A stretch of 64,000 nucleotides of DNA from NCBI RefSeq assembly GCF_000305775.1, contig NC_018866.1, positions 1,054,001-1,118,000 of the forward strand, read 5' to 3'. The number at the start of each line of letters is the position of its first letter. Position 1 is the first letter of the stretch. A program made the translations under genes and the position numbers. Shown here in pieces: positions 32,020 through 52,436 of this stretch. The notes under the pieces are model-generated. The model was not told the DNA's origin, ran no database searches, and saw only the letters and a list, made by a program, of their open reading frames with translations. Source of the DNA: Dehalobacter sp. DCA (GTDB lineage Bacteria > Bacillota > Desulfitobacteriia > Desulfitobacteriales > Syntrophobotulaceae).

Positions 32020-34858
32020 TTATAGCGCTTTAAATTCGTAGGTAACTTGATCATCCAGAACGGTAACGATCAGCTTATTGGCCTGTTTGCCTGCTGCGGA
32101 AGTGTTGAAGCCCGCACAGGAAATGTAACGTACTCCCCTGTCCAACTGAACTTGATCCGTGGAGCCCGGATAAAAGACATAGATATTTTTGCCGGTCTCC
32201 TTGTGGTAATCCGCTAAAGTATCCTTAAGTAAAGCAGCTTCTTTGGCATTAACAAACGAACCAGGAGCACAGTCCATGGATACAAAGATTTGATCGCCTT
32301 TGCTGCTGTCTAATTCTTTGAACAGCGAGGTCCATTGCGCCGGGTTAGTTCTCCGAAGCCCTCCTTTGCTGCAATCAAGCTGAATGAAAGTACTGTTCTT
32401 GTAATGAAAAATTTTATACCCGCTGCCAGTTTTCATAGCAGGCTTGGTCACTCCTCCGGCTAATTTGGCAGCGCTTGCTCCGGTGTAAATGGCAAGATCC
32501 ATATTTTTATTGATAAACGTATTCAGTTGCATCAAGCTTTGTTGTTTGGATTTGCTGCTGGGCTGCACGCTGCTGCCGAACACCGCAAACCTGAAATTGC
32601 TTGATCCCGCAGAGAACGTTGCCGCCCGGTTGGCCTTATCAGCGAGTACAGTATTTTGGGGTATCTTGGCAGTATCGATGGCAGGATGATTGCTCACGCT
32701 TGCCGTAAGCTCATCCCAATAAATCATTCCGCCGCTATTGGAAGGATCCGTGTTCCGGACATAGAGTCTTGTCAAATAGCACGGGGAATTGATACTTCCG
32801 AGAGAAGCGCTGACCTGTCTCCATCCATTCCAGCTCATATCCGCTGAAAATTGGACCTGATGCTTTTTACCGTTGGCATCTATAACTTCTCCCATGAGTT
32901 TGTTGGTATTCTCCAGAGAATTATAAACCCAAACGGCAAGTCCTGACGTATTGGCGTTAAGCGGGATCCCTTTATTTCCAAAAAGGATGGATGCCTCACC
33001 AGGGTCCTCCGTATTAAGAAAATCATACATCAGTTCTCCGGATGTTTGACCTGCATAAACCTGCCCGCTGCTGATCCGGTAAGAACCCCTGACATTTTCC
33101 GAGCTTGCAGAAAATGTCCCAAGGCTGTCTTCAAAAGCATATTTATTTTCCGTACTTTCTGAAGATACGGCAACCGCACAGTAGGCATGAACATTGCCGA
33201 CGGAAGCCTTGATATAGCCTGTACCTGCGTTCTGAGACTGGAAGACACCATTAAGACATTCTTCGATGCCGATGCTGCCGTATACCTTCCACTGAATATC
33301 TTCCGGCTGAATCCGAGCTGTAAATCCCTCCAGACTGCAGCCTGTAACCTGTATCGTCTGGCTTTGCCCTGACGGCGCCTTGATTTCATTGGTACTCAGA
33401 ATAAGCCTTGCGGGGGCGCTTAAAGAGCAAACATCCAACTCAGCCGTCAAATCCCCTACCTTTGCGGTGACTTTTCCATCCCCCACGGAAGTCGGACGAA
33501 GCGTACTTCCTGAAAACGTGCCTTTGATACCGCTGACTCCCCACTTCACATCCTCAGGGTCAATGTCCACCGGGTTCGCGTATTGGTCTACTCCTTTAAG
33601 TGTAAAACTTCTCGAAGTATTGACAAAAACATTTGGACTTTCGGTTTCAATGATTAATCTTGAAAGCGTTCCGGCAGGAGCCAAAGAAAAAATCCCGATG
33701 GCGTTCACAACTGGCCTTAATGTTCCCTCTGAAGGGACATTGGCAACCTGGAGCTGCTTTGTCCCAGGGGTTCGGGCCACCATGGTCGTTGACCCGCCTC
33801 CGTCAAGTATCATGGCATTGTAAGCGCCCAGCTGCAGCATCAGTGCTGCTGACTCTTTTTGGGTAAGACCGATACTGTTGTCCTGTCTTCCGTCCACAGT
33901 AACCAGAATCAGTTGTTTGCCGTCCTGCGTACTTCCTGCGAGCGTGCGGGGATTATTCTGATTAAAGCTGCTAACATTATATGAGAATTTATCGGGTATC
34001 TGACCGTCTTTAACCAGAACAGAAGCTCCGGTGACTGACATTTGAAGGCCGGACCAGTCCGGAGTTGAGTTTAGGCTTAGAGAAGCTTGTCCGCCAATTT
34101 GCAAACTTTGCACCAGTTTTGCTGCTTGTTCTCCCCTGGAGATGATTACAAAGCCATTAGTAGGAATCGCTGCAGCTGACTGAGCCTGACGCACCTCCAC
34201 AACCCGGCCGTCAGATACAAGAACTTCAACCAGGTCAGGATAGGCAGCCGAAGCCCCTAGTGTGGAAGCCCCCCATTTCTTATCAAGAACGGTAATATCG
34301 GTATAATTCCGACGGCTGGGCTGGTTGTACTGAGAAACAACAAACGGCGCAGAATCAGGGCCAATCAATTGAATCTCATTTTTCCAATAGTCAATACTCA
34401 ATTCGCCGTAATTGCTTAAGCTTAAAGAAGCCATTTCATTTTTATTTTGATTATACCAGCCGGCTGTCGACAACAAGCTACCATCTTGAACGATTGGCCC
34501 GTCGGCATAGCCGGTTCCCGCATTTATTGCGTTGAAAAAGCTGGCATTCACCGCTGCCACAGCGTTATCTTGTTGAGCTAGAGCGGGAACAGTGACGAGT
34601 TTCTTCTGTTATCTGATCGTTTGTCAATGTATCAATTTTTATATTTGGATTCGTCGTATCAATTCGTAAAACATTAATATTTAACCAGCCGTTCAAAGTG
34701 AATCTCGATATATTCTCCAAAGTTGCCCCAGCAGTAATCGTTTGCAGGGTGCTTGATTGGTAAAGCGCAGCCGGCAAGGCTGCTGCTTCACTTGAAAGCG
34801 TTGCGACGAATAATATCATGGCGATAACAACGGATAATGCTTTTTTAAATTGAATCAT
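32020..34858 (-). pseudogene. Secreted phosphodiester glycosidase-like protein, frameshifted
   Basis: Two frames together make one secreted protein of about 945 residues. The N-terminal part (34858 down to about 34595) has a signal peptide ending near SSEAAALPAAL. The second part (from about 34605 down to 32020) continues with AVAAVNASFFNAINAGTGYADG, the NAGPA/DUF2233 phosphodiester glycosidase domain, with MILDGGGSTTMV as its hallmark. The break lies near 34590-34605 and needs one inserted or two deleted bases to explain. Downstream are Ig-like or jelly-roll domains and a C-terminal metallophosphoesterase-like domain whose opening reads FRFAVFGSS, without the usual metal-binding Asp. It may act on cell-surface glycans. 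Confidence 0.75.
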
Positions 34859-35016
34859 GATAATTTGTTTGTCTCCTCTTTCTGTCTGATATTTCTGTCT
34901 ATACACAGCAAAAATTTGGAATTTCTTCCAACTTATTTTAAGTATACACCTTTGCCTGCTGTTTTATCTACCTTTTTGACATAATTTTTCTTTCAGTTTT
35001 TCTTTCAGAGCACGAC

Positions 35017-35895
35017 CTATAAAAATAATGAAACTGCAATACAGAACAGTTCATGCCCCTGGTGCTGAGACTGCAGCCGCGCTATCATTCCCATCATCTG
35101 ATCGAGGGATCCGCTATCGGGCCTGTTCGATATTTTTGATAAAGCGTTCAGGTCCGATTCCATTTTTTGATACGTTTCCCTCGAAAAAAGTGAAACCGGT
35201 TTGAGTCCTGCCTTTTCCAGAAGCAGGGTCAGATTCACAGCATTATAATGAAACAGATGATCCCTTTCCATAAAAAGCGGGGAATAAGGTCCGTAAACCG
35301 CGTTGGTGAATGAATCCCTGTTCGGAATGCTGAAAAATATTTTCCCATCCGGTTTTAACAAGCCGGATATTCCTTTGAGGAATCCCACCGGATCAGCCAT
35401 ATGCTCCATAACATGCCAAAATACGATTGCCTCAAATTTTTTATTTTGTTCCAATACGCCGGTCTGCCATACATGATTGATCATTTGAATTCCGAATCGT
35501 TCATCAGCAAATATACATGCCTTTTCAGACGGTTCTACACCCGTGGCCTTCCATCCCGCATTTTTGGCCATGAAAATAAATTCACCTGTACCGGAACCGA
35601 TTTCCAGAAGGTCACCTTTATGGGGGCAAAACACTTCCAGCAGCAAAATATTAAAACTTGCATGCTGCAGAAAAGTATCCTGGATGTACTGCTGGCGCAT
35701 CATGATCCAGCTGTCGTCATACGTTGCGTCAATCAGACTGTCCGGGCTGCTGCCCTGCATGCTCAAAGCAACGTGCTCATTCATAATTAAGTCGCATTTC
35801 AGGCAATGAATCAGTCTGAATCCGCTGTATTCAAAAAAAACTTCCAATCTACATCCTTCACATATAGGGCATTTTTCTATTTTGATACCTTCCAT
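35017..35895 (-). CDS. SAM-dependent methyltransferase with N-terminal zinc ribbon
   Basis: About 293 residues from the ATG at 35895 (a TTG at 35919 and a GTG next to it are alternatives). The first 40 residues form a zinc ribbon, CPICEGCRLEVFFEYSG then CLKCDLI. Next comes a class I methyltransferase fold with LLEIGSGTGEFIFMAKNAGWKATGVEPS and a following FHVMEH-like segment (VFWHVMEHMADPVGF). Such proteins often modify sugars or surface glycans. It is the last gene of a three-gene unit with glycosyltransferases, suggesting that it methylates their product. Confidence 0.82.
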   Translation of the reverse strand: MEGIKIEKCPICEGCRLEVFFEYSGFRLIHCLKCDLIMNEHVALSMQGSSPDSLIDATYDDSWIMMRQQYIQDTFLQHASFNILLLEVFCPHKGDLLEIGSGTGEFIFMAKNAGWKATGVEPSEKACIFADERFGIQMINHVWQTGVLEQNKKFEAIVFWHVMEHMADPVGFLKGISGLLKPDGKIFFSIPNRDSFTNAVYGPYSPLFMERDHLFHYNAVNLTLLLEKAGLKPVSLFSRETYQKMESDLNALSKISNRPDSGSLDQMMGMIARLQSQHQGHELFCIAVSLFL

Positions 35896-35934
35896 CACGA
35901 TATTCGGTTCTCCCAACAAGTGTATTTGATATGA

Positions 35935-37515
35935 CTAACGCAATGGACTCTCTTCCCATTCGACCAGTCGGGGGTTCGGGTCAAGGATAGACTCATACTG
36001 TTCTTTCCAGCCATAACGCGATTCAGGATCAAGCTGCAAATACCGCAGGTACTTCGCCAAACGGTCTTTCGGGTCCGCCCAGCCCAGATGTTTGATCCTC
36101 ATATCGCCTAAAGCATAGGAAAGCATTGTAATATTTTTGGGAAACCTCCCGCAGTGCAGGGGGGTTTCATTCCACTCAGCTTGAAAATCCGGCCTATACC
36201 TGATCAAGAAAGGCCGATAAATGGAATGGGCTTGCCAGTACTTATCTTCTCTGTAATGATTGTCATCCCAGAAATCATATAAACGGAAAAAATAAAGGTC
36301 CACATCAGGATTACAGATTAAATCCTGGACTTTCTCCTTAAATTTACGTTCGAACATTTCGTCTGCATCCAGGTTTAGGATCCATTCCGGATTTGTCCGG
36401 ACCGTTTCTTCCCACTGCTGTTTTCTAAGTTCCACTTCATTTTGAAATTTTGATACCGGGTTCTGAATGATCTGATACGGAATCCCCCGAAGGATCTTCC
36501 GGCAAAGATCGACACTGTTGTCCGTGCTGCCGTCATCAATAATGACAGCTTCATCTATAGAGTGCCTGTGTTCTTGCAACACTTTTTCCAGATAGCGATT
36601 TGCTTCATTTTTCATAATCATCGACAGCGTTAATTTCGGTCTATGAACACTTAAATATTTTTCATTTGTTCTCTCTTTTACTTCTAGTCTACCTTTATCG
36701 GTGTCGCACTTTTTCTTAAAATCACTTACCCCCGCCAGCGCTAATTCCCGGTAAATGTGATAAGCCGGATAATGCGTATCCACAAACAAGTCCAACCCCA
36801 GTGCCTTGGCCCGGATGCAAAAATGGCGGTCTTCTCCCCATAAAGTTAAATTCTCTATTTCCCTGAAACAGATTCCTTGAAGCAGGGCTTTTCTGCCGAT
36901 CAGCGTGCATGCTCCGAGACCTCCGACCTCGTAAACGCCGGGGACTTTCAATTGATTGAGAAAAGCCTGCTGCCTTTTCATTTGTTCCTCCGGGGTCAGG
37001 CTCTCCCCTCTGAGCCTGCGAACCAGATCATAGCTGTCATACAGCCACACATTGGGCAGCTCCGGAGTTTCCGGATACCACGTCGTCCAGAAGATTTCGG
37101 AGATAATATCTTTGCCGGTTCCAATCAGGTGGGTAATAGTTTGAGGATAAAGAAGCAAATCCGAATCAACTAAAAACAAATAATCGTAAGAACCTTCAAT
37201 CGCTTTTTGAATCATAAAATCTTTAAACTTAGCAACCTTCCATATCAGGTGCTCTTTCCAGTGATGGGTTGCGTCATCACATACGTAGGTTTCAGGATTC
37301 TTTTCTTTGTCCACGGATTGATACAGTCTGACCGGTTTGTTTTGGGCGAAAAGCAGCAGCTGCCGGCTGGACTCTTCCTCATGATTATCATCAACAAAAA
37401 TATACTCGATGCATACATCTTCCTGTTCCAGTCTGGTTAGCGAATCAAGAAATTCTCTTAAGATATTGGATTTTTGGCAGACAGGGCTTCCCAGCAGAAT
37501 CTTTTTCTTCTCCAT
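35935..37515 (-). CDS. Two-domain family-2 glycosyltransferase
   Basis: A 526-residue protein with two GT-A type domains. The first (about 1-250) starts KKILLGSPVCQKSNILREFL and has LFLVDSDLLLYP as its DxD-like site. The second (about 290-480) has LSMIMKNEANRYLEKVL, VIIDDGSTDNSVDLC and WILNLDADEMF. Two GT domains in one chain suggest that it adds two sugars or polymerises. Substrates are unknown. It lies 68 bases after the TPR-type glycosyltransferase and 39 bases before the methyltransferase start. Confidence 0.82.
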   Translation of the reverse strand: MEKKKILLGSPVCQKSNILREFLDSLTRLEQEDVCIEYIFVDDNHEEESSRQLLLFAQNKPVRLYQSVDKEKNPETYVCDDATHHWKEHLIWKVAKFKDFMIQKAIEGSYDYLFLVDSDLLLYPQTITHLIGTGKDIISEIFWTTWYPETPELPNVWLYDSYDLVRRLRGESLTPEEQMKRQQAFLNQLKVPGVYEVGGLGACTLIGRKALLQGICFREIENLTLWGEDRHFCIRAKALGLDLFVDTHYPAYHIYRELALAGVSDFKKKCDTDKGRLEVKERTNEKYLSVHRPKLTLSMIMKNEANRYLEKVLQEHRHSIDEAVIIDDGSTDNSVDLCRKILRGIPYQIIQNPVSKFQNEVELRKQQWEETVRTNPEWILNLDADEMFERKFKEKVQDLICNPDVDLYFFRLYDFWDDNHYREDKYWQAHSIYRPFLIRYRPDFQAEWNETPLHCGRFPKNITMLSYALGDMRIKHLGWADPKDRLAKYLRYLQLDPESRYGWKEQYESILDPNPRLVEWEESPLR

Positions 37516-37583
37516 TATTTTGACTCCTGATTATAGATTGCCGATGCCTAAAGTGCATTTGTTTATTTTGTATATCATCATCT

Positions 37584-38672
37584 TTAATTTTTACTGACGA
37601 CGCTGCCCAGTAAAGTTTCAAAATATTTTTGATTATGCAGGACCAGCTTGTCTTCCGGCTTATACTCGCCGGCTTTCTTGTTATAACGGATGGCCTCCGC
37701 CAGGTTACCGGATTTAAAGTAACAGGCGCAAAGCTCCATACACGGAATATAACCGTAACAATCATGGACGACAGACCCCCAGCTTTCTTCCGGCTTTTTT
37801 ATCGTGGTTGCCAGCTCATACCAGAATATTGCTTTGGGATAATCCTCCGCAGTTTTATACAAATGACCGATCTGGCAGCAGACTTCTGCCCTGGGAAGAT
37901 CGTGCTCCATACTTCGCAGCAAAGCTTTAAGCACATTTCTCCGGTCATTTTTGCTCAAATAGCAGTTGCTCATATCGATGCTGGCATCAATATAATTAGA
38001 TAAAAGCCCTCCCTCGGTATCGAGGAATTTGTCGTAGTATTGAATGGCTTCGTCAATTCTGCTGTTAATATAAAGCTCCCGTGCGTAATAGAAACAATTT
38101 CTGTCGCTTAAGATCCGGCCTTCGGAAATAATTTTTTCAAAGATCTCCAGATTTCTTGCGGTCTTCCGTTCAACTTTTTTATGGGTCACACAAATGTCCG
38201 AGTTGATAATGTTTCCTTCAATTTTTATATATTCGTGAATCGGGTCTTGCCAGGTATAGTTCATCGACCTTTTCAGGAGTCTTTCCCGGAAAAAAGTACA
38301 GACAGCATTCCCTTTATCATCAACGCCAAGGTTGTATCTCATCATCACAATATCCACTTGCGGATTCAGGGTCTCTTTCAGCTGCTGGAGCTTATTCCTG
38401 TCATCCTCCAGCAGCACATCATCCGCATCCAGCCAGAGAATATAGTTCTGGGTAGCTTGGGCAAAAGAAAAATTCCTGGCTGCTGCAAAATCATCTATCC
38501 AGGCAAAATCATAGACCTTAGCTTGATAACGGGCAGCAATCATTTTGGTTTGGTCCGTCGAACCAGTATCCACAATAATCATTTCATCGGGTATATCTCT
38601 GACACTTTCGAGACATCTTCCGAGCGTCTTTTCCTCATTTTTTACAATCATGCACAGGCTAATTGTGACCAT
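37584..38672 (-). CDS. Glycosyltransferase family 2 with TPR-like C-terminus
   Basis: The 362-residue protein has an N-terminal GT2 domain: ISLCMIVKNEEKTLGRCLESV, MIIVDTGSTDQTK, WIDDFAAARNFSF and ILWLDADDVL. From about residue 200 it is helical repeats resembling TPR (ARELYINSRIDEAIQYYDKFL, AIRYNKKAGEYKPED). This architecture is common in Firmicute surface or spore glycosylation loci, where the repeats may hold the acceptor protein. GGAGAAAAAA lies upstream. It leads a unit of three genes with a sigma-K-like promoter. Confidence 0.82.
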   Translation of the reverse strand: MVTISLCMIVKNEEKTLGRCLESVRDIPDEMIIVDTGSTDQTKMIAARYQAKVYDFAWIDDFAAARNFSFAQATQNYILWLDADDVLLEDDRNKLQQLKETLNPQVDIVMMRYNLGVDDKGNAVCTFFRERLLKRSMNYTWQDPIHEYIKIEGNIINSDICVTHKKVERKTARNLEIFEKIISEGRILSDRNCFYYARELYINSRIDEAIQYYDKFLDTEGGLLSNYIDASIDMSNCYLSKNDRRNVLKALLRSMEHDLPRAEVCCQIGHLYKTAEDYPKAIFWYELATTIKKPEESWGSVVHDCYGYIPCMELCACYFKSGNLAEAIRYNKKAGEYKPEDKLVLHNQKYFETLLGSVVSKN

Positions 38673-38686
38673 TTTTTTCTCCTTGA

Positions 38687-38735
38687 ACTATATCAAATTC
38701 ACAATTCATACTATGTGAATCGAGCAAGTCTGGTG
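38687..38735. promoter_or_regulatory. Divergent sigma-K-like promoter
   Basis: The centre is CATACTATG (38707-38715), which reads CATAGTATG on the other strand, so both directions match CATAnnnTA at 8 of 9 positions. On the minus strand CACC (38732-38735) lies exactly 16 bases from the -10-like element, as in sigma-K promoters. On the plus strand AACT (38686-38689) lies 17 bases away. The elements could serve the TPR glycosyltransferase and the DNRLRE gene. Confidence 0.4.
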
Positions 38736-38806
38736 AATCTCGATGCGCAATCCGCGGACAAGCAGAATACTATATAACGTAGAAAAACCTCGTTCAAAAA
38801 GGAAAG

Positions 38807-39832
38807 GTGATAGAATTGATTCACACATTTTACGCGGCAGCCGATGCCTATATAACCAGTCTTACCCCAACGGAAAACAATGGAAAGACAGGTACAATGT
38901 ATACAGGCCTGGATCCGTATTCCGGTTCAATCTACAGAAACTTGCTAAGGTTTGACCTCGCCATGCTTGAACCCAATATTACCATCCAGAAAGCGGTACT
39001 CCGGCTTTATCTGACTACGCGTTATCAAGCAGGCGCGCCGCAGCAGCTGGATATTTATCGTTTAACCGCTGCCTTTGAAGAAACTGCTGTAACCTGGGAT
39101 AATGCTCCCGGATCCGTTTTAACTCCTGATTATACGCTGGTTGATGATAACAACCCTAATGGCTATATCGATATCACCATGACCGATCTGGTGAAAGACT
39201 GGTATATTACACCCGCCGCCAATTATGGCATTATGCTTCAAACTACAGAGCTTACAAATTCCCTTTTGGCCTTCAGGACAAGAGAATATGCCGAAAGTGC
39301 CATGTGGCCTATGCTGATTATCGAGTATTCCCTGACCCATACCGTCATTTACACCAGTCCTGTAATCGGTGACTTCTCCTATTTATCCACAAGCTTTGTT
39401 TTAGAAGGGCATGCCTTAGAAACAGCTTATACAATCACCTATGATTCAGCGGCCCCAACAGCAGGTCTTGCTATTGTGGAGCAAAGCCAGGATGATGATG
39501 CTTGGGCCCAGTCATCCTCTATTAGTTTGGACCCTGGAGAGACCAGAACAATGAATATTTCTACACCTATGGTCTATGAAAGGCTGTCATTTGTAAATGC
39601 TGCAAACGCCGCTATGACGGATACCGTCGGCAGTACAATCGATGTCAATACCAATATTGATAATTCCAATGAAACTGCTTTACGTTACGAATCATCGAAT
39701 ACGCTTCTTCCTGTTGACCCTGATACCGGGGTTATGACGCTAGCAGTTGCGGATACGACGACAATTATCATAACCGCCAAGTACCTGGATAACTTCAACT
39801 ACTTTAGTTTTGAAGTAATTGCAGCTCCTTAA
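38807..39832 (+). CDS. Leaderless DNRLRE-domain protein
   Basis: About 341 residues from a GTG at 38807; a TTG at 38816 with AAAGGTGAT upstream may be the real start. Residues 1-190 resemble the DNRLRE beta-sandwich found in surface proteins (YAAADAYITSLTPTENNGKTG and LRFDLAMLE with KAVLRLYLTTRY). The C-terminal 150 residues form a second beta-rich domain of the DUF6385 kind. There is no signal peptide or membrane segment, which fits a mother-cell-made spore coat or exosporium protein. That role is an inference. Its stop overlaps the convergent glycosyltransferase stop. Confidence 0.75.
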   Translation: MIELIHTFYAAADAYITSLTPTENNGKTGTMYTGLDPYSGSIYRNLLRFDLAMLEPNITIQKAVLRLYLTTRYQAGAPQQLDIYRLTAAFEETAVTWDNAPGSVLTPDYTLVDDNNPNGYIDITMTDLVKDWYITPAANYGIMLQTTELTNSLLAFRTREYAESAMWPMLIIEYSLTHTVIYTSPVIGDFSYLSTSFVLEGHALETAYTITYDSAAPTAGLAIVEQSQDDDAWAQSSSISLDPGETRTMNISTPMVYERLSFVNAANAAMTDTVGSTIDVNTNIDNSNETALRYESSNTLLPVDPDTGVMTLAVADTTTIIITAKYLDNFNYFSFEVIAAP

Positions 39833-40899
39833 TAGCCAGGACTGCTAAATAACTTGCGGTTGAATATGACTCCCGGATCATCCGGTTTATATTGAGCCGC
39901 TTTTTCATTGTATTTTTGTGCTTCTTCCATATCTCCGATCCTGTAATAACAGTAACATAGCTGAATATTCGGGATAAAACCCCAGAAATCATGCAGGACG
40001 GTATTCCAGCTGATGTCAGGCTTTTTGAGGGTAAGCGCCAACTCGTACCAACCGATTGCCTTCGGGTATTCTTCTTTTTCCAAATATAAGCTCCCAATGT
40101 AACACAGTGTCTCAGCGCGCATACTGCCGTATTCAAAACTCCGGATCAATATCCGGAGCGCTTTTTTCCATTCCTGAGCCCGATGATAGCAATCGGCAAG
40201 GTCCAGACAAGCCAGTATCGCATAGTTTTCAAACATATTTTCACTGTCCAAATAGCGATTGTATTGCTCAGCGGCCTCCTCATAACGGCTGTTGATATAC
40301 AGTTCCCTCGCGTAATAGTACAGATCCCTGGCGCTGGTTTTGCTGCTTTGTCTTATGAGTTTTTCCAAGATCTTTAAGTTTCGGTCGCTTGTACCGCGTT
40401 CTTTACAATGCGTAATGCAGATTTCAGTATGGAGAATATTGCCGCTGAACTCAATACACTCATGAATTGGATTGCACCATTTGAAACCGGCACTTCTGTT
40501 AACCAGCCGTTCCCTGTAAAAGGTGTCGGTCTCATGCCCCTTTTCATCCCTGCCAACATTGTATTTCATCATCACAACATCAAAGAACAGCGGTATTTCC
40601 TGCTTCAATTCCATAAGAAGTTGACGGTCCTCTTCCAAAATTACATCATCAGCATCCAGCCACAGGATATAGTCCATCTGAGCCATGGAAAAAGAATAGT
40701 TCCTGGCCGCAGCAAAATCATCAATCCATGTAAAATCATAAATCTTCGTGGTGAATTTTGCTGCAATTTCCTTAGTTCGGTCAACAGAACCGGTATCCAC
40801 AATGATAATCTCATCGACAATGCCTTTAATCCCCGTCAGACATCTTTCCAGTGTCAGTTCCTCATCCCGGACAATCATACATAAACTGATCGTAATCAT
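39829..40899 (-). CDS. Glycosyltransferase family 2 with TPR-like C-terminus, second copy
   Basis: This 356-residue paralogue of the protein at 37584-38672 has the same layout: ISLCMIVRDEELTLERCLTGI, IIIVDTGSVDRTKE, WIDDFAAARNYSF and YILWLDADDVILEED, then helical repeats (ARELYINSRYEEAAEQYNRYL). GGAGAG lies upstream. The two copies flank the DNRLRE gene, so they may each glycosylate it or the neighbouring repeat protein. The acceptors and sugars are unknown. Confidence 0.82.
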   Translation of the reverse strand: MITISLCMIVRDEELTLERCLTGIKGIVDEIIIVDTGSVDRTKEIAAKFTTKIYDFTWIDDFAAARNYSFSMAQMDYILWLDADDVILEEDRQLLMELKQEIPLFFDVVMMKYNVGRDEKGHETDTFYRERLVNRSAGFKWCNPIHECIEFSGNILHTEICITHCKERGTSDRNLKILEKLIRQSSKTSARDLYYYARELYINSRYEEAAEQYNRYLDSENMFENYAILACLDLADCYHRAQEWKKALRILIRSFEYGSMRAETLCYIGSLYLEKEEYPKAIGWYELALTLKKPDISWNTVLHDFWGFIPNIQLCYCYYRIGDMEEAQKYNEKAAQYKPDDPGVIFNRKLFSSPGY

Positions 40900-40989
40900 C
40901 GCGTTCTCTCCGGTGCTTTATCATTTTTCTTTGCTATATTTTTATGTTGCGGAAATTGTTATGTGCAGTCTCAACCCGGAATATGGTTA

Positions 40990-40998
40990 CATAGGATA
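40990..40998 (+). promoter_or_regulatory. Sigma-K-type -10 element before the lysine methylase gene
   Basis: CATAGGATA matches CATAnnnTA at all positions, 49 bases before the chosen start. The AC that could form a -35 element lies only 13 bases upstream (AACC, 40973-40976), shorter than the usual 16-17. Taken alone this is weak evidence. Confidence 0.3.
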
Positions 40999-41047
40999 GT
41001 AATATGAATATAGTGGTATGAATATAAACCAGGATGAGGTGCGTTCC

Positions 41048-42292
41048 ATGACCGAAGCAAAAAGAAAGGTTTTATCCCCTTCCTATCTGAAAACCTTCAG
41101 CTGTATTGCCTCAGCCTGTGAAAATTCCTGCTGCATAGGGTTTAACATCCGAATAGATCCTGAAACCTTCAGCAAATACAAGATGGAAAATGATCCGCTA
41201 ATTCGCAAGTTATTTGAAGAAAACATTTATATCATCCGCAGTTCGACAGCAAAACAGGATTATATCACCATCAATCCGACCAAAGATTATCGTTGTCCTT
41301 TCCTCACGGAGGAAAAACTGTGCTTCCTGCAATGCCGGAAAGGAGAACAGTACTTATCCGAGATCTGCGCTTCCTTTCCGTGTATAGGCAATATTTTTAA
41401 CGGTGTCCTGGAAAAATCAGCGACTCTAGCTTGTCCGGAAGCGGCGCGTCTAGCTCTGTCACAGACTGAGGCGATGGATTTAATCGAAGTTGAAGAGCCT
41501 AATGATACCCGGAATTTTGTTTACAATTTGCTGAACACCGAAGACGAAATATTTCAGAATAAACCTGCGAAGCACCTGTCTGAACTCAGAGAATTCACTT
41601 GGAGTATCCTGAAAAACAGAAAATACCATTTAGATGACAGGGTTGTTTTTCTTGGGGCCTTTATGGAAGAGGTTGAACGACTGGAGAAAGTGTCTGCTGT
41701 TGATAGAATCCCGGATCTCATTTTGAGCTACACAGCTCTTTTTTCGGATGCTTCAGCAATGAAGGATATAACAGCCATTCCTGTTTCTCCGGTCCCACGT
41801 ATTTCCCTGTTTCTACCTCCTGCTATCCGTGTGATTCTTCCCTCGATTGAATCAGACCGGTATCTGCGTTGTTTCAGTAAATTCTTAGAAGGAATTCGTT
41901 TTTATGCTTCAACAAGTTATACCCAAGTTGGTAAATGCTATGAAGAAGCCTACCAAAGGTATTACTCCCCTTTTATGCGTGAACATGACTATATCCTGGA
42001 AAACTACCTCTTAAATTACGTTTTTATGAAGCTGTTCCCTTATGACTTGAATGGGAATTCAGTTTATTACAGTTACTTGCTTCTGGCAGTTAATTATGCC
42101 TTGCTCAAAATGCAGCTCGTTGGAATATCGGCTTATCAGCAGGAATTGACCGTTGATACTGCCCTCATGGTGATTCAATCCTATACAAAGGCTGTCGAAC
42201 ATAAATACCCGATTCTCCATAACCTGATTCAAGCGCTGAAACAAAACCATTTGGATTCTCTCGCTCATATTGCAGTTTTTGTCAAGGATTAA
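41048..42292 (+). CDS. fliB: FliB-type lysine N-methylase
   Basis: About 414 residues from the ATG at 41048, which has GAGGTG upstream (an ATG at 41018 is weaker). FliB methylates lysine side chains of flagellin in Salmonella. Here the cysteine-rich start CIASACENSCCIGFNIRIDPE, then YRCPFLTEEKLCFLQ and ICASFPC, match the family, which probably binds a metal centre. No flagellar gene is in the window. Convergent with it is the EIK-repeat protein, whose regularly placed lysines make an attractive substrate. That pairing is inference. Confidence 0.8.
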   Translation: MTEAKRKVLSPSYLKTFSCIASACENSCCIGFNIRIDPETFSKYKMENDPLIRKLFEENIYIIRSSTAKQDYITINPTKDYRCPFLTEEKLCFLQCRKGEQYLSEICASFPCIGNIFNGVLEKSATLACPEAARLALSQTEAMDLIEVEEPNDTRNFVYNLLNTEDEIFQNKPAKHLSELREFTWSILKNRKYHLDDRVVFLGAFMEEVERLEKVSAVDRIPDLILSYTALFSDASAMKDITAIPVSPVPRISLFLPPAIRVILPSIESDRYLRCFSKFLEGIRFYASTSYTQVGKCYEEAYQRYYSPFMREHDYILENYLLNYVFMKLFPYDLNGNSVYYSYLLLAVNYALLKMQLVGISAYQQELTVDTALMVIQSYTKAVEHKYPILHNLIQALKQNHLDSLAHIAVFVKD

Positions 42293-42380
42293 AGCCAAAG
42301 ACACTTTCGAATAGCGAGAAGCTCACCCTGAAATAATACAGGCGGGCTTCTCTAACGCTCATCTTATACCTATTTGACAA

Positions 42381-43772
42381 TCAAGGATCAAGAGGCTGTT
42401 GCAACGGTAGATAATTACTGCTGAAAAGTGGGTCTACAATTTGGTCACTGACCACAGTAGGTGTTGTTCTTGACCAAATAAATACCTTTCCTGGGGTCGC
42501 ACCGGATACTTCGATTTCTATCTGGGTGTTGGGCAATTTTTGATTGAAGAAAATGCTTGTCGTGCAGTAAGGTGGCAAGGTAACCGTTGATTTGAAAGTT
42601 GGACTGAGAAGTGTCTTGGGACAGACATCTACATTAAAGACCGAAACATTTATGGGCCCGATAGTGGATGCACTGTTGTTCATGACTTTAACATCCAGGA
42701 TATTCCCTACACTGGGATTACTGAGTTTGAACGGTCCTGAAGTCTGAGCGTTGGCAGCACCTAGACTTGCTTCTATCGCTGCTATTTCAGATTTTATTTC
42801 CAGCAAACCAAAGGTGGGACTCAATACAGCGTTTTGGATCTGGAAGATTTCCGTTTTAATTTCTGCTAAGCCAAATGTCGGACTGAACACTGCCCCTTCG
42901 ATTGCGGCTATTTCGGATTTAATCTCCTGCAGACTGAAAGTCGATCCTACGATACTCGTGAAAATACCTTCAATCAGCGTTCCGATACTGAAGACTTCCG
43001 TCTTGATCTCCGCCAAGCCAAATGTTGGACTGAACACTGCCCCTTCGATTGCGGCTACTTCGGATTTGATCTCCTGCAGACCAAACGTTGCTCCCATCAT
43101 GCTCGTGAAAATGCCTTCAACCAGTGTGCCAATACTGAAGACTTCCGTCTTGATCTCTGCCAACCCAAACGTTGGGCTGTCTAGCTTATTTTCGATATTC
43201 TCAACCGTGAATTCAATAACCTGAACTTCGGACTTAATCTCCTGTAATCCGAAAAATGGATGATTCACTGCTTTTTCTATCGAAAATATCTCTGTTTTAA
43301 TTTCTGCAAGCCCAAATGTCGGGCTTTCCAAAAGCTTCAGAATTTTTCTGCAATCAGGCCGATGCTTGGGACAGCAGCCTTTTTTCTTGCAGAAAAATTT
43401 AAACGAACTGCCAAAGAAAAACAGGGCTCCTACCGCAGTTACGCTTATTTTCAGATTTCTTACGATCACAATCTTTTTTCTACCTACCTGATCTTTGGGA
43501 CTGGTTTGATTGTCCACCTTGCTCTTGTAAAGAATTTTTATTGTCGCCCCACCTAAAAAGAGTCCCGACAATACACCAATACATATGATTGTTGTATTCA
43601 CAGCTTGTTTAATTGTAGTAAAACGTGCGTATAATCCGGACTCAGCTGCATATCCGGTTTCTGTTTGATTATTACGCAATTCATCTTGGATTATCTGCAA
43701 GTGACATAAGAAATTTGCCAAAGATATTTTATCCAATATCTTTTTACCATTTTCGTAGTCATCAGACACCAC
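42381..43772 (-). CDS. Membrane-anchored heptad-repeat protein with eight EIK motifs
   Basis: A 463-residue protein starting at a GTG with AAAGGAGG upstream. Two hydrophobic segments (about 57-80 and 101-122) form a membrane hairpin, followed by a Cys/Lys-rich linker (FCKKKGCCPKHRPDC). Residues 153-329 hold eight copies of FGLxEIK(T/S)E, starting at 153, 174, 202, 230, 251, 279, 300 and 321, so every spacing is 21 or 28, multiples of seven. Between them are hydrophobic stretches. A beta-rich C-terminal domain of about 115 residues follows. I do not recognise the family. It is probably a long coiled coil on the cell or spore surface. Confidence 0.8.
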   Translation of the reverse strand: MVSDDYENGKKILDKISLANFLCHLQIIQDELRNNQTETGYAAESGLYARFTTIKQAVNTTIICIGVLSGLFLGGATIKILYKSKVDNQTSPKDQVGRKKIVIVRNLKISVTAVGALFFFGSSFKFFCKKKGCCPKHRPDCRKILKLLESPTFGLAEIKTEIFSIEKAVNHPFFGLQEIKSEVQVIEFTVENIENKLDSPTFGLAEIKTEVFSIGTLVEGIFTSMMGATFGLQEIKSEVAAIEGAVFSPTFGLAEIKTEVFSIGTLIEGIFTSIVGSTFSLQEIKSEIAAIEGAVFSPTFGLAEIKTEIFQIQNAVLSPTFGLLEIKSEIAAIEASLGAANAQTSGPFKLSNPSVGNILDVKVMNNSASTIGPINVSVFNVDVCPKTLLSPTFKSTVTLPPYCTTSIFFNQKLPNTQIEIEVSGATPGKVFIWSRTTPTVVSDQIVDPLFSSNYLPLQQPLDP

Positions 43773-43818
43773 AATACCTCCTTTGTATTTCTAATATTAT
43801 CCAATTTTAGTACGTGCT

Positions 43819-43848
43819 TATTAATATGATTTTGGGAAATTTGTTGTG
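43819..43848 (-). promoter_or_regulatory. Imperfect sigma-K-like promoter of the repeat-protein gene
   Basis: On the minus strand CACA (43845-43848) is separated by 16 bases from CATATTAATA (43819-43828). The -35-like part and the spacing fit sigma-K; the -10-like part has one extra base between CATA and TA. It lies about 47 bases upstream of the GTG start. Confidence 0.3.
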
Positions 43849-43889
43849 AACAAAAACAAGCATTTTCTCAAAATAATGGAGATATCTCA

Positions 43890-43918
43890 AACAAGCTCAA
43901 CCTATTTTTCATACAATA
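43890..43918 (+). promoter_or_regulatory. Sigma-K-consensus promoter of a glycosyltransferase gene
   Basis: AACA (43890-43893), 16 bases, then CATACAATA (43910-43918). This matches the mother-cell sigma-K pattern (mACm, N16, CATAnnnTA) at every defined position, with 70 bases to the start codon of the downstream gene. CATACAAT also matches the sigma-E -10 form, but no sigma-E -35 sequence is present. Confidence 0.5.
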
Positions 43919-43988
43919 TGCTGTAATAGCTTCTAAAACATGCTCCAGAAGTATTTGGAACAAGATATGGAAAGAGGAAGGGAAGACA

Positions 43989-44888
43989 ATGATTCCACCT
44001 TTCATCAGTTATATTACATTTAACCGCTTAGGTCTGACCGCGAGAAATCTTGATTCGATCCTCGATACTTCAGAAGAATTTGAAATGCACATCATCGACA
44101 GCAATTCCAGGGATGATACCTGGGAATATTTAAGATCCCTTCAGGACCCTCGCATCCAATCAGTAACCAGGCTTCCTCTAAACTGCGGGCCCATTTATCC
44201 CCTGAACTTGAATCTTTCCAGAAGAAAACCGGAACAATATTTTTTAACCATTGACAGTGATGTTTTTATGATCAGCAAGAAATGGATTTCACGTTTTATG
44301 GAGGTTTTTGAGATATTTCCTGAGGTAGGTCTTCTGGGCGTTAAAAGAGGAAAACCTTACCCTCGGTATTACCCTCCGGTTATTTCCAGAGTTAAAGACA
44401 ATATTCATTATTTACAATTAGAAAACGGTCATATTGACGCTCCGCTCGACTTTGTTCCAGGCTGCTGCCAAGCCTTAAGACCGGAATTAATCAATCAAAT
44501 CGGTTATTGGAACGAAGAATGCTGTTATGGTGATTCCGAACTATCTGCGCGGATCTGTTGTCATACTGATTTCAAGGCAGGTTTTATCAATACCGTTGAA
44601 ATTGAGATGACGCAGTCCATTAACTGCGCCGAATGTCAGGCTGAAAGATGGTGCAGCTTGAATCATCCGGTAGACACCTGTTTCAATATCTGGCGCAGAT
44701 ATTATATTAATAGAGCTGCCGCCGCAAAGTTCCGGCCAAACTTTCTCAAGGTATTCCAGGAACTTAAGCAAGGAAAAAGGTCAGCCTATTCAGCCTCAAT
44801 ATCCGATCCCGAGTCAACCCGAAAAAACCTGTATCATCAAAACTGGGCAATGGAAAATATCAAATATTATATTCAAAATTCCAATTAA
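43989..44888 (+). CDS. Glycosyltransferase family 2
   Basis: A 299-residue GT-A protein with GGAAGGGAAG upstream. It reads FISYITFNRLGLTARNLDSIL, then FEMHIIDSNSRDDTWEYL, and the metal site FLTIDSDVFMI. WNEECCYGDSELSARICC gives a late acidic and cysteine-rich segment. The donor and acceptor are unknown. It differs from the TPR-bearing enzymes in lacking C-terminal repeats. It is divergent from the repeat-protein gene, with both promoters in the shared 216-base gap. Confidence 0.82.
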   Translation: MIPPFISYITFNRLGLTARNLDSILDTSEEFEMHIIDSNSRDDTWEYLRSLQDPRIQSVTRLPLNCGPIYPLNLNLSRRKPEQYFLTIDSDVFMISKKWISRFMEVFEIFPEVGLLGVKRGKPYPRYYPPVISRVKDNIHYLQLENGHIDAPLDFVPGCCQALRPELINQIGYWNEECCYGDSELSARICCHTDFKAGFINTVEIEMTQSINCAECQAERWCSLNHPVDTCFNIWRRYYINRAAAAKFRPNFLKVFQELKQGKRSAYSASISDPESTRKNLYHQNWAMENIKYYIQNSN

Positions 44889-51207: not shown

Positions 51208-52170
51208 TTATCCTCGAAAAGCTGCAAGTGAAAATTCCGAAGTATCGATCGCACAATCCATATCATAATTGTCATTAAACCAAATATTTGCCTTAAGTCT
51301 AGGATACACTCCTGCCTTAATCTGAGCCTTCATATCCGTAATCCATGCAGCTTTACTACCACCTTGCTCAGACGAACCAATTTCTGCAATGATTATCGGC
51401 TTCGTAGAACCGCTTGCTAATGCCTTATAAGGCGCATCAAACACTTGTCTGAAAGTTTGCCAACTGCTCCACTGCTGAGATGTTCCCCAGTTATATCCAT
51501 CCACAGAAACATAGTCCACATAATTGTTACCAGGATATGCTCCCATATAAGTGGCGCTTCCTTTATTTTGATAATTTACGTTATACACGAACTTAACATT
51601 TGTTGCACCGTTTGCACGGAATATTTTTACGATCCTTTGGTATGCGCTCTTGTACGAAGCATTGGTATTTACGTTGCTATTTCCAACACACCAACCATAC
51701 CAATCTCCGTTAACCTCGTGCAGCGGACGAAGCCAAACTTCCGTACCATTTTGCCAAGATTTAAACTGCTGGGCAATTGTGGCGAAGTATTCATCCAACT
51801 TGCCATTGTTTATCTCAACAGTATTGTAATCTGTCATATCATCTTTCTTCAATTGCAGGGTGATCAAGTTAATTGCGCCTTCACTTTTAGCGGCATCCAT
51901 AAAATCTTCCCATTGGCTCACATCCTGTGTTGAATAAACAAAAGTGTGAATTACTTCACTGCGATGGTTAGCCAGTGCGTTAAAATCCTGAATAGCTGTA
52001 TTTCCCGACGAAGCCCATTCTCCCAGCCAGGCTCCAGTCATTACCGTTGTCGATGCCGTTGCTGTTCCCGGTGTTCTAGCCTTCCTTGCTGCTGCGGCAT
52101 CAGCAGTAGGTGTATAAAGTGCTAAAAACATAAAGGTAAATAATAGAAATACAGATATAAACTTTTTCAT
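51208..52170 (-). CDS. Secreted GH26-type glycosidase, copy 1
   Basis: A 320-residue protein with a signal peptide (FLLFTFMFLALYTPTADAAAA). The body matches glycoside hydrolase family 26 (beta-mannanase-like): the acid/base Glu is E152 in WLRPLHEVNGDWYGW and the nucleophile E263 in IIIAEIGSS. GH26 enzymes cut beta-mannan or related beta-glycans, including exopolysaccharides. Two c-di-GMP riboswitches lie upstream and AAAGGAG sits directly against the riboswitch end. Its own terminator makes it monocistronic. The substrate is unknown. Confidence 0.85.
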   Translation of the reverse strand: MKKFISVFLLFTFMFLALYTPTADAAAARKARTPGTATASTTVMTGAWLGEWASSGNTAIQDFNALANHRSEVIHTFVYSTQDVSQWEDFMDAAKSEGAINLITLQLKKDDMTDYNTVEINNGKLDEYFATIAQQFKSWQNGTEVWLRPLHEVNGDWYGWCVGNSNVNTNASYKSAYQRIVKIFRANGATNVKFVYNVNYQNKGSATYMGAYPGNNYVDYVSVDGYNWGTSQQWSSWQTFRQVFDAPYKALASGSTKPIIIAEIGSSEQGGSKAAWITDMKAQIKAGVYPRLKANIWFNDNYDMDCAIDTSEFSLAAFRG

Positions 52171-52178
52171 TAAAAAAA

Positions 52179-52265
52179 CTCCTTTCGGTAGCTGGCTGCC
52201 ATTTTACAGGCCCTTTAGCTTTGCGTCTCTGCCTTTCGACAGGTTTGCCTTTATCGTTTGAGAGT
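52179..52265 (-). promoter_or_regulatory. Class-I cyclic-di-GMP riboswitch, proximal copy
   Basis: On the minus strand the region holds the GEMM-I core: GGCAAACC, a short hairpin with GAAA, GACGCAAAGCTAAAGGGCC, then ATGGCAGCCAGCTACC (52187-52202). The ribosome binding site AAAGGAG (52179-52185) follows immediately, 8 bases before the GH26 start, so ligand binding could control translation of that gene. Identification is by conserved core; ligand binding is inferred. Confidence 0.85.
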
Positions 52266-52356: not shown

Positions 52357-52436
52357 TTTTGGTAACTGGCTGCCATTTTACAGGCCCTTTAGTTTTGCGT
52401 CCTTGCTTTTCAGCAAGTTTGCCATTGTCAGTAATA
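52357..52436 (-). promoter_or_regulatory. Class-I cyclic-di-GMP riboswitch, distal copy
   Basis: The same core occurs again upstream: GGCAAACTTGC, GAAAAGC, GGACGCAAAACTAAAGGGCC, then ATGGCAGCCAGTTACC (52361-52376). It is followed on the minus strand by AAAAGTAGTTTTTTG, which may belong to an expression platform. Spaced about 90 bases from the proximal copy, with no gene between them, it forms a tandem arrangement. Confidence 0.82.

Follow-up and report, generated by a model that had tools for sequence, protein, structure and literature searches.

The gene island at 35017-44888 of the window, by which we mean the whole 64,000-nucleotide stretch of Dehalobacter sp. DCA analysed here (from a genome consisting of a single contig of 3,069,953 bases), is in our judgement probably an SgtA/BclA-type locus that glycosylates the spore surface, with a heptad-repeat coiled-coil stalk where those systems have collagen. 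The candidate stalk belongs to a protein with EIK repeats, whose relatives lie beside glycosyltransferases (GTs) carrying C-terminal tetratricopeptide repeats (TPRs). A TPR-GT was found within 5 kb of EIK at 7 of 15 loci, against 0.2 expected from genome-wide GT counts, and when one locus is counted per lineage the linkage holds in 4 of 7 (P ~4e-7). One or two such enzymes each accompany the EIK genes of G336, Desulforamulus, G303, G164, MES5, Ammonifex and Neobacillus (labels of the form G### stand for genomes and L### for loci). The connection with the spore comes from a giant EIK paralogue of 1323 aa in the same genome, which directly adjoins its own GT and has two Coat_F proteins and a Mn-catalase-family protein as neighbours, and from Desulforamulus putei, where two CsxC-family proteins are encoded 1.3 to 3.7 kb upstream of an EIK pair (scoring 266 and 262 bits, the cut-off being 135). 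CsxC was identified in the purified exosporium of C. sporogenes, in a study which additionally recorded CotJC and fibrils that differed in length (PMC4942563).

Gene content of the island

A preliminary description of this DNA had listed four GTs, a zinc-ribbon methyltransferase, a FliB, a leaderless DNRLRE protein and an EIK-repeat protein, all of which we located in the island; the helical C-termini which it noticed in two of the GTs are TPRs. The features are as follows.

35017..35919, minus strand: zinc-ribbon S-adenosylmethionine (SAM) methyltransferase (Methyltransf_23, E 4e-24; N-terminal CPxC...CxxC)
35935..37515, minus strand: two-domain glycosyltransferase, 526 aa (Anp1-like N half, below cut-off, and GT2 C half)
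37584..38672, minus strand: SgtA-like glycosyltransferase 1, 362 aa (GT2 domain and C-terminal TPRs)
38807..39832, plus strand: DNRLRE/CBM96 protein (121 bits against a cut-off of 34; no visible signal peptide)
39829..40899, minus strand: SgtA-like glycosyltransferase 2, 356 aa (GT2 and TPRs; N-terminus MITISLCMIV)
41018..42292, plus strand: FliB-type lysine N-methylase, within the island (NCBIfam NF038110, 297 bits against a cut-off of 85)
42381..43772, minus strand: EIK-repeat protein, 463 aa (N-terminal anchor with hydrophobic and Cys-rich segments, heptad-register stalk, C-terminal beta domain)
42381..42767, minus strand: predicted C-terminal beta-sandwich domain of the EIK protein
43804..43828, minus strand: 25-bp upstream element CATATTNATAAGCANGTACTNAAAT, common to the giant EIK paralogue
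43989..44888, plus strand: GT2-family glycosyltransferase, with paralogues elsewhere in the genome

The island open reading frames (ORFs) are real, since the same genes stand in the same order in Dehalobacter restrictus PER-K23 (L034) and the ratio of nonsynonymous to synonymous substitution rates (dN/dS), at 0.08-0.44, indicates purifying selection on every island gene tested. In both TPR-GTs the GT2 domain occupies residues 5-146 and the TPRs residues ~204-340. The DNRLRE gene lies between these two enzymes, with the EIK gene 1.5 kb off, and its product is a candidate second surface acceptor or carbohydrate-binding partner. The zinc-ribbon enzyme is a possible sugar O-methyltransferase of the island glycan.

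Elsewhere in the window, a tandem pair of c-di-GMP-I-GGC riboswitch aptamers (52183-52258 and 52357-52432, minus strand) was noticed upstream of a GH26-like gene at 51208-52170.

EIK proteins and their giant paralogues

Units of 28 and 21 residues, which are four and three heptads long, make up the EIK stalk; its hydrophobic residues keep an unbroken a/d register, and the repeat is not a product of chance, since the motif spacings fall on multiples of 7 (153 of 157 in Dehalobacter and 106 of 129 in other genera). The protein has 34 lysines, one per repeat motif, and the stalk has 33 Ser/Thr among its 187 residues. Most members of the family share a layout of N-terminal region, heptad stalk and a C-terminal domain starting 'TTGPF', which is missing in some.

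No Pfam or NCBIfam family covers these proteins, which matched only generic coiled coils; their PHROG matches were likewise at the coiled-coil level, and a PDB sequence search with the EIK protein was set aside. A repeat profile search found relatives in 15 of the 398 genomes of the phylum, matches of the EIK hidden Markov model in G027 and G334 being rejected as generic coiled coils. A repeat-based scan of named genomes gave 17 loci, among them those of Desulforamulus aeronauticus, D. putei, D. aquiferis, Desulforadius tongensis, Thermovorax subterraneus, Ammonifex and Neobacillus pocheonensis, while an earlier scan with an N-terminal pattern had given zero. The family is present in at least 10 genera of Bacillota, and a literature search, which most subscription papers lay outside, returned no description of it.

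The C-terminal domain is predicted to be a beta sandwich (mean predicted local distance difference test score, pLDDT, 78). Its nearest solved folds are carbohydrate-binding modules (CBMs; Z 9.1), and as the C-terminal domain (CTD) of F-BclA, at Z 5.7, falls far under these, we claim no fold membership for it. Nor do we claim a likeness to Ena1B (Foldseek E 0.025), and a KIF21A match (E 3e-4) from a PDB search with the C-terminal profile was not taken as meaningful. The full-length model was poor (pLDDT 56), with only short helices interrupted at SPTFG turns.

The giant paralogue uses a 49-residue pair of units (28 + 21) many times. Between strains these giants vary in repeat number and order, with lengths of 1323, 1269 and ~2135 aa (L032 8973-12944, L035 4267-8076 and L033), and the gene is a rapidly changing DNA repeat; the longer form, that of Dehalobacter restrictus (L033 6200-12669), is in two ORFs, frameshifted inside one repeat, a break which may be real or a sequencing error. 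Both the short and the giant EIK gene have the element CATATTNATAAGCANGTACTNAAAT in their promoters, identical bar three variable positions, and no other copy was found in the window or in the other loci scanned. The element could regulate the two genes in common, or could be left over from the duplication.

Several further genes were noticed at EIK loci. Small CBM53 proteins are encoded divergently from the EIK genes of MES5 and Desulforadius tongensis (L153 7616-7999, L157 9256-9693) and are perhaps carbohydrate-binding partners, like the DNRLRE/CBM96 protein of the window. A small RGGPES-motif protein (DUF6897/MM0924) encoded upstream of the Neobacillus EIK genes (L155 8190-8777) is reminiscent of CotB. 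In G336 a 1040-aa DUF11/isopeptide-domain protein is encoded between the EIK gene and its TPR-GT (L132 2912-6034), and DUF11 domains occur also in the F-ENA anchor of Clostridia (PMC11952670).

Phylogeny of the glycosyltransferases

The TPR-GTs of the island form a clade with 100/100 support together with the GT beside the giant EIK gene, those of G336 and Neobacillus and one of D. aeronauticus, in a tree whose deep branches are weak and some of whose branches are long. Flagellin-adjacent GTs fall outside this clade, including the two which the flagellar cluster of the window genome has of its own, beside CsrA/FliW and sugar genes. The EIK-adjacent GTs of Desulforamulus and neighbours form two further separate clades. 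At the Neobacillus pocheonensis EIK locus a TPR-GT (48% identity) and a two-domain GT (53%) occur together. The second G336 enzyme of the island clade adjoins the gene of a 1322-aa protein with DNRLRE ahead of collagen repeats, while beside the D. aeronauticus enzyme a collagen-like protein is encoded. These neighbours of island-clade GTs tie one kind of enzyme to EIK stalks, to collagen-like stalks and to the DNRLRE protein.

Spore or vegetative surface

Dehalobacter is motile and has flagellar and sporulation genes (PMC4751268, PMC3910700), and we identified SpoIVA and the germination genes GerA and GerC in the window genome. The GerA and GerC genes (L095 20-3692, 9225-10124) lie within 6 kb of a paralogue of the island GT2.

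A number of observations weigh against a spore-surface role. Spores have not been reported in the genus (PMC4751268, PMC3910700), and the island itself holds no coat genes, its spore link coming via paralogues and relatives. EIK presence is not enriched in spore-formers above a high base rate: all 15 EIK-positive genomes have SpoIVA and all 15 have flagellin, against 84% and 81% of the sample, so that neither co-occurrence is informative as a discriminator. The preliminary description had held that conservation of the cluster in non-spore-formers would speak against it; no such case appeared among the 15, which at a base rate of 84% is hardly a test. In six EIK genomes the gene has no GT neighbour. 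The best PDB match of the TPR-GTs is GmaR, a Listeria flagellin N-acetylglucosamine (GlcNAc) transferase, and with this as the nearest solved relative the enzyme type therefore serves flagella too.

The sigma-K-like sequences which had been described before several starts are also weak evidence. With strict or relaxed patterns of our own choosing, matches precede 3 of the 8 starts (0.07 and 0.21 expected; P 0.06 and 0.008), and the spacing of the one before FliB is altered in the sister Dehalobacter genome, G004; the matches are suggestive only.

A rival reading, that the island makes a vegetative cell-surface glycoprotein, an envelope fibre with no relation to the spore, we regard as unlikely. 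In its favour, besides the unseen spores, the N-terminus of the EIK protein has hydrophobic segments, so that it may sit in the membrane of vegetative cells, and the neighbouring gene at 32020-34906 specifies a NAGPA phosphodiester glycosidase whose N-terminus resembles a signal sequence. Set against this, the DNRLRE protein is leaderless, and the EIK paralogue and relatives adjoin Coat_F and CsxC genes. The NAGPA gene is itself split in the window (32020-34560 and 34565-34906, minus strand) by a one-base difference in a T-run from the single 945-aa ORF of Dehalobacter restrictus, and the split could be real or an assembly error.

FliB and the island

The island FliB carries the iron-sulphur motif CX4CX3CC of its family (PMC8598068), as C29-X4-C34-X3-C38-C39. 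The preliminary description had placed it in one system with the glycosylation enzymes, the island as a whole building a glycosylated and lysine-methylated spore layer. The glycosylation half of that proposal is supported by gene neighbourhood (Coat_F, CsxC, the SgtA-like architecture and the collagen-like partners of the clade), but the methylation half is not supported.

It is true that FliB occurs in the island of both Dehalobacter genomes with a short EIK gene, that EIK offers a lysine in every repeat motif, and that this FliB, preceded by a sigma-K-like match, lies 462 kb from the flagellins of the window genome. However, in G004 the order is RsgA, a 312-base remnant of the NAGPA 5' end, an intact FliB (88% identity, dN/dS 0.22), the last ~50 bases of GT2, and MscL; from these scars the island was lost on both sides while FliB was kept. 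No FliB was found at the giant EIK locus, nor nearby at the EIK loci examined outside Dehalobacter, and an over-cut-off FliB occurs in only 3 of the 15 EIK genomes, two of them Dehalobacter. In the phylum sample, moreover, at least 7 of the 17 genomes with a full-length FliB encode it no further than 20 kb from a flagellin, against 0.6 expected. On the deletion scars and the flagellin linkage we rejected FliB as a part of the system, and methylation of the lysines of EIK, the DNRLRE protein or both is improbable; we think equally little of its fuller form, a coiled-coil spore nap to which SgtA-like enzymes add O-glycans and whose lysines are methylated by a FliB that Dehalobacter took over from its flagellar role.

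FliB is probably an unrelated neighbour which modifies flagella. It is the only FliB of the motile window genome, which makes flagellin its likeliest substrate, though given that orphan FliB genes occur in the order the substrate may be another. The RsgA-MscL region was not found in G005, so the absence of FliB there was not used as evidence, and viral contigs gave no FliB relative of the island type. A second FliB is present in Dehalobacter restrictus (L054 9791-11041), where it belongs to a flagellar cluster broken up by transposases.

That the whole island modifies flagellin, with GmaR-like TPR-GTs adding GlcNAc, FliB methylating lysines and EIK a bystander, would suit the top PDB match, the flagellin methylase family of FliB and the flagellate habit of these organisms (PMC3910700), but is very improbable, the flagellar cluster owning two GTs outside the island clade and the clade members in other genera adjoining EIK or collagen-like genes, not flagellin.

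Proposed pathway

If the island is a spore-surface glycosylation locus, as we favour, the mother cell would make the EIK protein along with the leaderless DNRLRE protein, and the two SgtA-like enzymes, their TPRs holding the acceptor substrate, would place a first sugar, by analogy with SgtA/BclA3 probably O-GlcNAc, onto Ser/Thr of the DNRLRE protein and the EIK stalk. The two-domain GT and GT2 would extend the sugar, and the zinc-ribbon methyltransferase may O-methylate the terminal residue. The EIK N-terminus would anchor the protein, the stalk, as a presumed coiled-coil oligomer, would project as a nap or fibre, and the beta domain would cap it, the giant paralogue beside the coat genes giving a longer fibre. 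FliB would be a separate resident of the locus, with flagellin as its likely substrate.

Desulforamulus and Neobacillus are culturable hosts in which this pathway could be tested. It also raises the question whether Dehalobacter, which is used in the cleanup of chlorinated solvents, can still sporulate.

Comparison with known systems

The closest parallel is SgtA of C. difficile, an enzyme of 358 aa whose gene lies immediately upstream of bclA3 and which initiates O-GlcNAc on BclA3 (PMC7157674). Compared with the published description of SgtA, the island enzymes share a GT-A domain with C-terminal TPRs, a length of about 358 aa, a MITISLCMI start and a gene next to that of a stalk-type surface protein. 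They differ in their candidate acceptors, which are a heptad-repeat coiled coil and a DNRLRE protein and not collagen-like, and in being two, with extra GTs. The catalytic domains of GmaR (PDB 22ao) and SunS (7msp) are also like those of the TPR-GTs, whereas acceptor and accessory parts differ. The island FliB, for its part, shares the family match and CX4CX3CC motif of the flagellin lysine methylases (PMC8598068) but lies off the flagellar locus.

With the BclA/BclB exosporium nap the EIK protein has in common an N-terminal anchor, a repeat stalk of variable length, a predicted C-terminal beta head and GT neighbours, but it has no Gly-X-Y or collagen match and its stalk follows a 7-residue register; with the TNF/C1q-like head of BclA the predicted beta sandwich is only loosely comparable, the Z of 5.7 for the F-BclA CTD being below the level of relatedness. 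The CsxC family of C. sporogenes (PMC4942563) adjoins EIK in Desulforamulus, but is not homologous to it and is absent from the window. The F-ENA/Ena endospore appendages (PMC11952670) are likewise spore fibres of Bacillota, but EIK has neither DUF4183 nor a sequence match to them. We have not filed EIK as a BclA member, because this presumed main acceptor is not collagen-like; by analogy, the island would work like SgtA/BclA with a non-collagen main acceptor. The EIK family, which has no Pfam or NCBIfam model, occurs in distant Bacillota and is tied to SgtA-like enzymes, appears to be a coiled-coil counterpart of BclA collagen, and if this is true, spore-surface construction is broader than collagen-like and Ena-type fibres.

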